From an uncultured Candidatus Poseidoniales archaeon (GTDB taxonomy: Archaea; Thermoplasmatota; Poseidoniia; Poseidoniales; Poseidoniaceae): a DNA stretch of 64,000 nucleotides. Shown one piece after another: positions 21,725-25,726 of the stretch; position 1 is the stretch's first letter, and each line of letters begins with the position of its first letter. The notes under the pieces were generated by a model. It saw only the letters and a list, made by a program, of their open reading frames with translations, was not told the DNA's origin and did no database searches. The stretch spans positions 62,001-126,000 of the forward strand of contig CAJIZC010000023.1 in the NCBI GenBank assembly GCA_905181785.1. Reading direction: 5' to 3'. The translations under genes and the position numbers were made by a program.

Positions 21725-23155
21725 TTACTCGTTTTCCCAAATATGCGACGGTGTTGAATCGATCAAGCTTCGACCGTGTTGCTTGAGTCGCTTCAATCGG
21801 TGAATGACGAAACCAGTGATCCACAACGAGGGCATGGAAAGCAAAAGCGCCATCCACATGAGGTCTTCATGGTAGTCATTGAGCACGCGAACCTTCACGA
21901 CATCTTCCTCACCGGTGCTGGGGTTATGCATGACCACCAAACTGTAGACCTTAGGCGCATCAATTTCCAACGCTAACGTCGAATTTGGAGCAACCGTGTA
22001 GTGTTCACCAAGCGTCTTCATGATCGACCAGTCAATGCTCCCATTCTCCATTGCAGGCGGGGCTGATTCAACCATCAAAACAACCACTTCGATTGTGATG
22101 GATTGATGCAGGTTTGTCACGGTCGTATCCACGGAGTCCCCCGGATCAAACTTTTGAATGATTTCAAATGTTGAATCTTCTGGACCCAATTGGTACGACA
22201 CCCGTTCATCCGCCGTGTTGATTTGAACGTTGACAGCCATCAGAATAAGCGTGACCATGACCAGCGTGACGACGCCTTCGATCAAGACGTGGCGGCGGAC
22301 TTTACGCGTCGTGAATCCTTTGAAAAAGCCACCGTAATCGTTGCGCAAACGAGGTTGGAGGTGGTGGATGAACAGCGCCCCTACACCACCAACCAGCAAC
22401 CCAAGCGGTATGTCGATGAACCAGTGGATTCCAAGGTAAAGAATCGTGAACATGAACAGCAATGTGTTGGCACAAACAAACACGTGGTACCGGTAATGCT
22501 TCCATTCTTTCATTGTGCCTCCTTTCTCTTTGACGTGCAAATAATTGAGGAGAATAATCCCAAACGGGATGGCGACATGCAGGGATGGGACAGCGTTGTC
22601 CAACGGGTCGTGCAGGGCGTAAAACACACTGTACCACCCTTCGTGGTACAACAGGGCGTCCATTCCGGGGATCCAGGAAGAAGTCACTTCTACGTTGAAG
22701 AACAGATAATAAGGAACTGCAAGTGCATAGATGAGCAAGTAATTCAATGTCACTTTGTCGGTCATGTCTCGGTCGCCAGTGTAGGCAAAATACACCGTTG
22801 TGACATAAATCAAAAACAGGTAAATGAACAGGTAGTGGAAGTTAAGAAACGAGGTCAAAGATTCATTCGCAAAGAAGTTCTGAATGTGCAGGGTAAAGTC
22901 ACCTTCGATGCTGTACACCAACCCCGTCCAGTGACCGGTTTGGATTTTGATTGGTTCGTTGAGGGTGTCGGTGATTGATTTCCATCGGATGATGACAATG
23001 TAACCCATGGCGTGAAGGTAGTACCTTTGGTTGTGAATCACTTCACCCCAAGCCTTGAACGGTGTCCTCATGCTCTTGTCATGAAGGGTGAAAAACCAAC
23101 ATATGATTGGCGTGAGCACCAAGATGAGCCCCATCATGATTCCATAGGGCTCCAT
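21725..23155 (-). CDS. PAP2-superfamily (Aur1/inositol-phosphotransferase-like) membrane phosphatase with C-terminal beta domain
   Basis: 476 residues. The N-terminal 290 hold at least six transmembrane helices and the PAP2 motifs: NAVPSLHVAIPFG (C2, catalytic His) and LGIHWFIDIPLGLLVGG (C3, nucleophilic His and Asp). The C1 K-x6-RP motif is not obvious, as in the Aur1-like subgroup. After another helix (about 300-320) there is a beta-rich extracytoplasmic domain (about 325-440) and a final helix. Likely acts on lipid phosphates or transfers polar head groups. A second, shorter PAP2 protein is at 58622-59380. Confidence 0.8.
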   Translation of the reverse strand: MEPYGIMMGLILVLTPIICWFFTLHDKSMRTPFKAWGEVIHNQRYYLHAMGYIVIIRWKSITDTLNEPIKIQTGHWTGLVYSIEGDFTLHIQNFFANESLTSFLNFHYLFIYLFLIYVTTVYFAYTGDRDMTDKVTLNYLLIYALAVPYYLFFNVEVTSSWIPGMDALLYHEGWYSVFYALHDPLDNAVPSLHVAIPFGIILLNYLHVKEKGGTMKEWKHYRYHVFVCANTLLFMFTILYLGIHWFIDIPLGLLVGGVGALFIHHLQPRLRNDYGGFFKGFTTRKVRRHVLIEGVVTLVMVTLILMAVNVQINTADERVSYQLGPEDSTFEIIQKFDPGDSVDTTVTNLHQSITIEVVVLMVESAPPAMENGSIDWSIMKTLGEHYTVAPNSTLALEIDAPKVYSLVVMHNPSTGEEDVVKVRVLNDYHEDLMWMALLLSMPSLWITGFVIHRLKRLKQHGRSLIDSTPSHIWENE

Positions 23156-23199: not shown

Positions 23200-24441
23200 T
23201 TGGCTACAGGCGGGCGTTTCCTAAATCCTTCATTTGCCGCCCAAGAGGTGAAAGGTGATGCCCTTTTCCTTGATTTGATTACGACCATGTGGAAGCCTGC
23301 TCCTGAAAACACCCTCGAAAGTTTGAGGCACGCCATTCAACTGCATGATGGCATAGAGTTTGATCTGAGGCTAACCAAAGACAGCGAAGTGATCGTCCAC
23401 CACGATGCAACCGTTTCGGTTTCCAAGGAACGGATCACGGCTCCAACTTCTTGGGTCGAAGATTACACGCTGGACGAATTGGAAGCCTTTGGTTTCTGCT
23501 CTTTTCGAACGCTATTGGAGGATAAAGTGGTGTCGGAAGAGTGGCGGAACGGTGGCAAAATGGGTTGTGTAGAACTCAAAAGGCCTCACCCGAAATCGAA
23601 GGTTGGCGGTGGATTTTTTGGACGGAAAACTCACCAGCAACACGTTACTTCCCTGATCGAAGCTGCAGACGAGTTGCTGAACGAGGCTCAAATCCCTTCC
23701 GAAAATACTGTTTTTTACGCTTTTCACACGGGTATGAAACCTTCCATCGAGGCTTCGTCGACCTCACGGCCATGGGCAGAATTGTTGCCTTACATTCCAC
23801 CGTTTGGGAACCGTCAGACCAAACGGTTGCGGGCCCTCCCTCAGTTTTTGACGCATTCCTTTTCGCGTCTGGTTCACCGGCATCGAAGCGCTGGGGCTTC
23901 GATGATACCTGCAGCGATTGAATACTTCGTGGCTCCCCTCAACAAGATGCCACTCGGCAAGAAGGTTGGACTCACCGGGAAAGGAGCAGAGAACTTGAAA
24001 GCCGCCCAAGGTGGTTTTCCAGTTTATGTCTGGCCTGCTAAACCAGATGTGGAGCACGCATTGCTCTCAGCAGGATTAACCGGACTCACCGACCAGTCAG
24101 ACCCGGAATACACGTGGCTTCCCTCAGGGCATGCACGATGGACTCAACCGGCCACAATGCCACTCACTGCCGAGCAAACGCTGCTGCTCAATGGAGCAAC
24201 TGAAGACAACCACCTTGACGTGTTAAAGGAATTGAAAGCAGACGTGACCCCTTGGAATCAATGCAATCTTTCGGAACGCAAAACCTTGGCAGAGGGTTGG
24301 TCAAAGCGCTGGGCTTGGCGCACTGTTGAAGGGTCGAGGCATGACACGGATTTGGAAGCATCAGCTAGCCCGCCTTGGCAAGCTGTACGGTTGATTGGCC
24401 ACCGTGGGTCGGGGAAAACTGACCGTCCAGTTCTTCAGTGA
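23200..24441 (+). CDS. GDPD-family protein with catalytic HRG motif at the C-terminus (possible circular permutation)
   Basis: Related to glycerophosphodiester phosphodiesterase, a TIM-barrel enzyme. Near the start are APENTLESLRHAI, GIEFDLRL (Glu53, Asp55), VHHDATV (His67-His68) and CVELKRPHP (Glu125, Lys127); VYVWPAKPD with GLTGLTDQSDPEY (about 280-305) matches the last strands. The HRG motif, normally within the first ten residues, is missing there but appears at the end as RLIGHRGSGKTDRP (His401). An extra 85 residues precede it. The start is unclear: in-frame TTG 23200, GTG 23248, ATG 23287. The best ribosome site (AGGTGA) precedes an out-of-frame ATG at 23258 that reads six codons. See findings. 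Confidence 0.7.
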   Translation: MATGGRFLNPSFAAQEVKGDALFLDLITTMWKPAPENTLESLRHAIQLHDGIEFDLRLTKDSEVIVHHDATVSVSKERITAPTSWVEDYTLDELEAFGFCSFRTLLEDKVVSEEWRNGGKMGCVELKRPHPKSKVGGGFFGRKTHQQHVTSLIEAADELLNEAQIPSENTVFYAFHTGMKPSIEASSTSRPWAELLPYIPPFGNRQTKRLRALPQFLTHSFSRLVHRHRSAGASMIPAAIEYFVAPLNKMPLGKKVGLTGKGAENLKAAQGGFPVYVWPAKPDVEHALLSAGLTGLTDQSDPEYTWLPSGHARWTQPATMPLTAEQTLLLNGATEDNHLDVLKELKADVTPWNQCNLSERKTLAEGWSKRWAWRTVEGSRHDTDLEASASPPWQAVRLIGHRGSGKTDRPVLQ

Positions 24442-24444
24442 GTT

Positions 24445-25611
24445 TCACTCGATGTGGCGCAACGTTTGTTGTTCTGCAATGTACTTGGGTCGGTAGATTG
24501 GTGTTCCTTTGCCGTTGCGCATAACGCTGCGTTCATCAACGATCTGTGCTCCAATTCCAGCAACACGGGCCCAGCCGAAGAATGTGGTGTAGTAGGTCGG
24601 GTCTGTCAACCCAATGTGGTGCAACAATGCACCGCTTGCAATGTCCACGTTGGCGTTTGGATTGCTGATTTTGGGGTTTTCGCCAAGGACCCTCGGGGCC
24701 ACTTCTCTTAGCGTTCGAATGATCTTGAAGTTCTCGTCGTCAGGGCAGACTTGTTGACCAAGAGCAAATTGGACTGTCGCTCGTGGGTCTTCGGTCCGGA
24801 GGACTGCGTGCCCGAAACCGAACACCGGTCGTTTCGCTTCGAGTTCAGCGCGAACAAAGGCTTCGACCTCCTTTGGATCGCTGGTGCCAATTCGCAGCAC
24901 GAATTCCAAGCATGACTGGTTGGCTCGACCGTGCAAGGGTCCGGAAAGGGCATTCATTGCACCTGCCATAGATGAGTAAACGGTTGCGTGACTGGAGGCG
25001 ATTGCCTTGCCGGTAAAGGTGGAGAGGTTGCCACCACCGTGGTCCATGTGAAGCACGAGGTAGGTGGAGATAATTTGAGTCATCTTAGCCTTGTCCACGC
25101 CTTGAAGGTCAAGGGTGTTGACAAATCGATCCACCATTGAAGCGTTCGGGTCGTCAGCAGGAATGTTTTCGGTTCGACCTTCTCGAATCCTGAACAGCAG
25201 TCCCATCAACCGAGGCATTCGAGCAATGAGGTTCATGGCGTCAGAACGCCAGTCATTGGTGGTTTCGAGCATGCCGAGGGTGTGAATGCCGACGCTGAGC
25301 CAATCCATGGGGTGGCCGTCTCGTGGGAGTGCCTTGAGGATGGATTCAAGGTCGCCGGGAACGGTGGCCCTCGCTGTCAATTCTGCTCTGATTTCTTTGG
25401 ATTGCTCGGGCGTTGGAAGTTCCTTGTTGAACAGAAGGTAAACGATGTCCTCTGGAGCAAAGGTGGCGAGTTCTGTGATGGGGTATCCACAGTAATGGAC
25501 GCCTTCGGTTGGGGTGACAAACGAGGTTCGGCAAGTGCCGACTGGAACGCCTCGCAAACCCGTGTTTAGGTGGTTTGAGGTTAACTCAAGCAAGACTTCT
25601 TCATCGCTCAT
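24445..25611 (-). CDS. gltA: Citrate synthase
   Basis: About 388 residues from MSDEEVLLEL. Citrate-synthase landmarks: LHMDHGGGNLSTFT (first His region), GPLHGRANQ (second catalytic His), VFGFGHAVLRTEDPRA (equivalent of GFGHRVYKxxDPRA; the usual Arg after GFGH is Ala here) and NPNANVDIASG (catalytic Asp). It condenses acetyl-CoA and oxaloacetate. The frame opens to 25635, but the ATG at 25611 gives the family N-terminus. It is convergent with the GDPD-like gene, with stops 3 bases apart. Confidence 0.93.
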   Translation of the reverse strand: MSDEEVLLELTSNHLNTGLRGVPVGTCRTSFVTPTEGVHYCGYPITELATFAPEDIVYLLFNKELPTPEQSKEIRAELTARATVPGDLESILKALPRDGHPMDWLSVGIHTLGMLETTNDWRSDAMNLIARMPRLMGLLFRIREGRTENIPADDPNASMVDRFVNTLDLQGVDKAKMTQIISTYLVLHMDHGGGNLSTFTGKAIASSHATVYSSMAGAMNALSGPLHGRANQSCLEFVLRIGTSDPKEVEAFVRAELEAKRPVFGFGHAVLRTEDPRATVQFALGQQVCPDDENFKIIRTLREVAPRVLGENPKISNPNANVDIASGALLHHIGLTDPTYYTTFFGWARVAGIGAQIVDERSVMRNGKGTPIYRPKYIAEQQTLRHIE

Positions 25612-25726
25612 GAATACCTCACCGTGCACATCCACCGAGGCTTCTCGTATAAAACCGGCTGCTTGGCCTCACTTGGTGGCCCGAAACGATGGGAAGCATG
25701 AACGAGTATGACAGAGAAGAGAATGT

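Follow-up and report, generated by a model that had tools for sequence, protein, structure and literature searches.

Conventional members of the GDPD / GlpQ-UgpQ superfamily (PF03009), including 2pz0 of T. tengcongensis, 4oec of T. kodakarensis and 1o1z of T. maritima, carry an HRG motif at the N-terminus, before the PENT motif; this order is typical, not essential, in the superfamily. Residues E44 and D46 of 2pz0 are metal ligands, and H59 is a catalytic histidine. The histidine and arginine of HRG provide the remaining catalytic and phosphate-binding residues of GDPDs. In nature, circularly permuted TIM barrels are uncommon. GH70 glucansucrases, which are enzymes unrelated to GDPDs, represent a circularly permuted form of the GH13 alpha-amylase TIM barrel, in which the strands are rotated in order and the active site is retained (PMC11046441).

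In this study, a gene of Candidatus Poseidoniales was analysed whose product shares the fold and the PENT, E-x-D, H-D, E-x-K and HRG motifs of conventional GDPDs, which are its best sequence and structure matches, but carries HRG at the C-terminal end and adds larger loops and a helical linker between beta8 and beta1. The product is very probably a cytosolic, metal-dependent phosphodiesterase of the GDPD superfamily with a (beta/alpha)8 barrel circularly permuted by one strand. The GH70 barrel starts at alpha3, whereas only beta1 would have moved here, the cut falling within the catalytic beta1-alpha1 loop. Naturally permuted TIM barrels are thus already known, and no published circularly permuted GDPD was found in the literature searched. 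The cut separates a catalytic histidine from the remaining active site in a protein near-universal in an abundant order of surface-ocean archaea. The protein offers a testable case for studying the origin of permutations and how they remain active. Annotation programs match part of the protein only, and would call it truncated or devoid of a catalytic motif.

Reading frame, motif layout and neighbouring genes

The window, that is, the whole 64,000-nucleotide stretch that was analysed, is part of a 1.66-Mb genome bin related to Candidatus Poseidoniales (Marine Group II). Positions 23200-24441 form a genuine open frame carrying every GDPD motif listed in the preliminary description, which had set the start at TTG 23200. 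The ATG at 23287 is the likelier start codon, because an in-frame TAG immediately precedes the equivalent ATG in one relative (L006) and the residues upstream of the equivalent ATGs lack conservation across the family. The gene therefore likely occupies 23287..24441 on the forward strand and encodes 384 aa plus stop (Pfam PF03009, E=9e-14). The protein begins with MWKPAPENT, its C-terminal end is RLIGHRGSGKTDRPVLQ and its last 16 residues read LIGHRGSGKTDRPVLQ. No signal peptide was evident at this new N-terminus, and the protein is therefore probably cytosolic. A short purine-rich element (AAGAGGTGAAAGG; CTTAGAAAGGAG in relatives) lies at window positions 23240-23265 and at equivalent sites in many members of the genus, approximately 30-45 bases 5' of the start, and may be part of the promoter for a leaderless transcript.

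Motifs numbered 53-55, 67-69 and 125-127 from 23200 correspond to residues 24-26, 38-40 and 96-98 from ATG 23287. All were present as first described, together with the C-terminal HRG. All features lie on the forward strand. PENT (residues 6-9; 23302..23313) marks the new N-terminus at the start of helix alpha1. It is followed by E24-F25-D26 in strand beta2 (23356..23364), where E24 and D26 are the predicted metal-ligand pair, by H38-H39-D40 (23398..23406), where H39 is the predicted second catalytic histidine, and by E96-L97-K98 in strand beta3 (23572..23580). VYVW (24022..24033), which contains the invariant W249, had been taken with its following residues (VYVWPAKPD) as the last strand; it is barrel strand 7, and the final strand preceding the tail in the linear barrel is GLTD. 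A predicted helical linker (residues 269-367; 24091..24387) leads from beta8 to the relocated strand beta1, LIGHRG (residues 369-374; 24391..24408), in which His372 is the residue formerly numbered His401. The C-terminal tail SGKTDRPVLQ (24409..24438), including the invariant G376, would be the first half of a split beta1-alpha1 loop.

A convergent citrate synthase gene (24445..25635, reverse strand) ends 3 bases past the stop codon. This tail-to-tail arrangement was observed at 73 of 80 named loci, and at nearly all loci examined in family f2. The divergent upstream neighbour (21725..23155, reverse strand) encodes a PAP2-superfamily membrane protein; the same type of neighbour occurs in most of family f1. 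In f2 and some f1 genera, an ATG22-type MFS transporter stands there instead.

Conservation and rotation of the strand order

The preliminary description had also considered a decayed gene or the stub of a truncated tandem GDPD, and a frameshift artefact belongs to the same group of explanations. In their favour, an upstream ATG at 23258 lies out of frame and Pfam recognises profile positions 8-69 only. That ATG had been noted as a possible sign of decay, the bases after it faintly resembling a broken HRG start, but it reads no conserved peptide in relatives. The frame is intact, and HRGxG occurs inside the last 30 residues in 117/117 distinct orthologues with both ends present, which is far beyond chance. 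For the 12 codons surrounding HRG, a comparison of 20 genus-level orthologues gave a pS of 0.785 and a pN of 0.055, values indicating that the C-terminal tail is under strong purifying selection. Decay is excluded by this ratio together with the intact orthologues. A tandem stub can be ruled out, given that no second GDPD is present and the citrate synthase gene is reached only 3 bases beyond the stop codon. Overall, decay, artefact or stub is extremely improbable. In one locus (L131), an HRG upstream of the likely start was judged to be a chance occurrence; the assembly contains ambiguous bases.

The alignment of 43 orthologues (28-73% identity to the window protein) had invariant columns that include N8, E24, D26, H39, E96, K98, H372, R373, G374 and G376. 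W2 was near-invariant at the head of the protein, and SGKTxRPV was conserved in the tail.

Against Pfam PF03009, the protein scored 52.6 bits (gathering cut-off 23.6), with a partial match confined to profile positions 8-69. When the protein sequence was doubled, the best Pfam stretch (372-452) crossed the C-to-N junction and matched profile positions 1-68. Searches of NCBIfam returned partial, sub-threshold matches only. The protein closely resembles conventional GDPDs over beta2-beta3 only; outside beta1-beta3 the similarity is low, and the stretch from beta3 to beta8 contains large insertions.

In a rotation scan, hhalign was used to set a profile built from 112 permuted proteins against one of 17 conventional GDPDs of the phylum, for cut points taken round the circle. 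The native order scored 134.9 and covered conventional profile positions 9-215. Scores of 156.4-157.1 over positions 1-215 were obtained when HRG was placed before PENT and the barrel was left unbroken (cuts at columns 270-367), and cuts just past HRG returned the score to 135-137. The match to the conventional family thus improved and became complete only upon rotation, and the gain belongs to the strand-1 HRG segment, since the score rises only with HRG in front. The profile-profile alignment placed HRG on HRG and E96-x-K98 on the conventional ELK strand. Rotation of single sequences, scored by HMMER against the 17 conventional Thermoplasmatota GDPDs, gave a median gain of only 1.6 bits, because the rotated loop is approximately 10 residues longer than in those proteins; the comparison therefore required profiles on both sides. 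Since HRG occupies residues 372-374 instead of preceding PENT, the motif order assigns the protein to PF03009 as a permuted variant and not as an ordinary member.

Predicted fold and proposed active site

AlphaFold2 models were built with orthologues only, and the method may be biased towards complete barrels. For the window protein, run with 42 orthologues, the mean pLDDT was 90.9 and the pTM 0.90. Strands were predicted at residues 22-29, 92-97, 141-145, 163-165, 207-210, 246-249, 265-268 and 369-372, plus a short one at 35-37; DSSP assigned 369-372 as a strand, thereby raising the barrel count to eight. In the models, the C-terminal strand is the eighth strand of the TIM barrel. A 337-aa orthologue from another genus, whose linker is approximately 50 residues shorter than that of the window protein, gave an identical arrangement (pLDDT 93.6, pTM 0.91), its last strand lying at 320-323. 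Foldseek returned GDPDs as the top PDB matches for both models, with a TIM-barrel fold and approximately 15-20% identity; the target-normalised TM-scores of approximately 0.5-0.7 are expected from a sequential aligner, which is unable to place a strand that has moved. The one-strand circular permutation first proposed is supported by the invariant C-terminal HRG, the rotation test, the Pfam match across the junction and two AlphaFold2 models.

We considered whether the LIGHRG strand is instead exchanged in trans, so that it completes the barrel of a neighbouring subunit in a domain-swapped dimer with an active site shared between chains. The helical linker, of up to approximately 100 residues, is in principle long enough to reach a partner. 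However, the monomer models confidently show a regular strand, even with the linker shortened by approximately 50 residues, and exchange between chains is accordingly improbable. Several genera have a shortened linker, as in L067 (the 337-aa form), L066 and L081 (g13) and in L064 and L065 (g20), and retain the C-terminal HRG strand.

With pairing inside one chain, the permuted protein would begin within the old beta1-alpha1 loop just before PENT, continue from beta2 to beta8 and pass into the helical linker of variable length. The terminal beta1 would then insert between beta8 and beta2, thereby bringing His372 and Arg373 to the active site formed by E24, D26, E96 and H39; His372 would then lie near E24 and D26. 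The active site is apparently kept although beta1 has moved to the C-terminal end, and the new termini would place the break in the beta1-alpha1 loop, at the barrel's catalytic mouth. Conservation of SGKTxRPV in the tail and W2 at the head suggests that both still contribute to the pocket.

E24, D26 and H39 align with E44, D46 and H59 of 2pz0, and both catalytic-histidine positions, the HRG arginine, E-x-D and E-x-K are invariant in the 43 sequences. From this invariance of all GDPD catalytic positions we infer that the protein is an active phosphodiesterase that depends on a metal. As in conventional GDPDs, the acidic residues would hold a divalent metal, with the two histidines serving as general acid and base. 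The substrate may be a glycerophosphodiester or of lysophospholipid type, and its hydrolysis would yield a glycerol phosphate and an alcohol. A permuted barrel could exist with other chemistry, either hydrolysing a different phosphodiester or serving a non-catalytic role, which is compatible with the permutation itself; the low similarity outside beta1-beta3 and the large insertions from beta3 to beta8 point that way. Invariance of the catalytic positions argues for phosphodiester hydrolysis, and other chemistry is considered unlikely.

As a GDPD-type phosphodiesterase, the protein is a candidate for a role in the glycerophosphate metabolism of these archaea, in which the type of membrane-lipid backbone is in question. 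The classical G1P dehydrogenase gene was found in none of the 25 Poseidoniales genomes tested, and its absence from Poseidoniales has been described (PMC6962369); an enzyme releasing glycerol phosphate is therefore of interest for their lipid metabolism, and any such link is speculative. In a more far-reaching and rather doubtful proposal, the order-wide permutation put both chain termini at the catalytic mouth and allowed them (W2, G376) to join the substrate pocket or lid, giving a GDPD of altered specificity that may supply glycerol-3-phosphate to archaea lacking the classical G1P dehydrogenase.

Distribution and origin in Candidatus Poseidoniales

Among named records, matches at 71-76% identity came from the MG-II chromosome CM001443 and from several Poseidoniaceae MAGs, among others, and an orthologue was detected in 57 of 60 relatives. 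Class-wide, a match was found in 270 of 293 genomes, including nearly all of both Poseidoniales families, and the genomes without a match are mostly fragmented bins or belong to the sister order. The permuted protein is near-universal across the order, in each of its two families. Among GTDB genomes, the best 80 matches came from Poseidoniales or from loosely labelled marine Euryarchaeota/Thermoplasmatota bins, and members outside the phylum may rank below them. The expectation that homologues share the C-terminal HRG held for every complete orthologue. One bin (G271) contains three copies (L081, L056 and a third), one full-length and two of the short form; this bin may be mixed.

Only conventional-order GDPDs were found in the sister order and in the other lineages of the phylum that were sampled; in the latter, the matches lay at the PENT/EFD region. 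HRG preceded PENT in 17/17 conventional GDPDs of the phylum inspected. The conventional GDPDs of the sister order (L072, L074-L076; 230-247 aa) belong to the same superfamily and a related archaeal lineage. Unlike the permuted protein, they have an N-terminal SHRG, lack a C-terminal HRG and do not adjoin citrate synthase; their neighbourhood is unrelated and not syntenic with the permuted gene. Homologues with an N-terminal HRG and without a C-terminal one were distant conventional GDPDs only, from the sister order and other lineages, and none was an orthologue. No relatives of the permuted protein were found on viral contigs, and plasmids gave only partial matches, to ordinary GDPDs.

The permutation probably became fixed a single time, either before or in the ancestor shared by all Candidatus Poseidoniales, and possibly arose by tandem duplication and trimming. 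No intermediate between the conventional and permuted forms was seen in Poseidoniales, the sister order or the phylum sampled. In the second Poseidoniales family, several genomes have an extra short GDPD-like frame of conventional order (approximately 195-235 aa), at L079, L080, G038:C26:42951-43292, G048:C11 and G057:C2. The first motif of the short frames at L079 and L080 reads GHRLG[TA]SG, with HRL replacing HRG.
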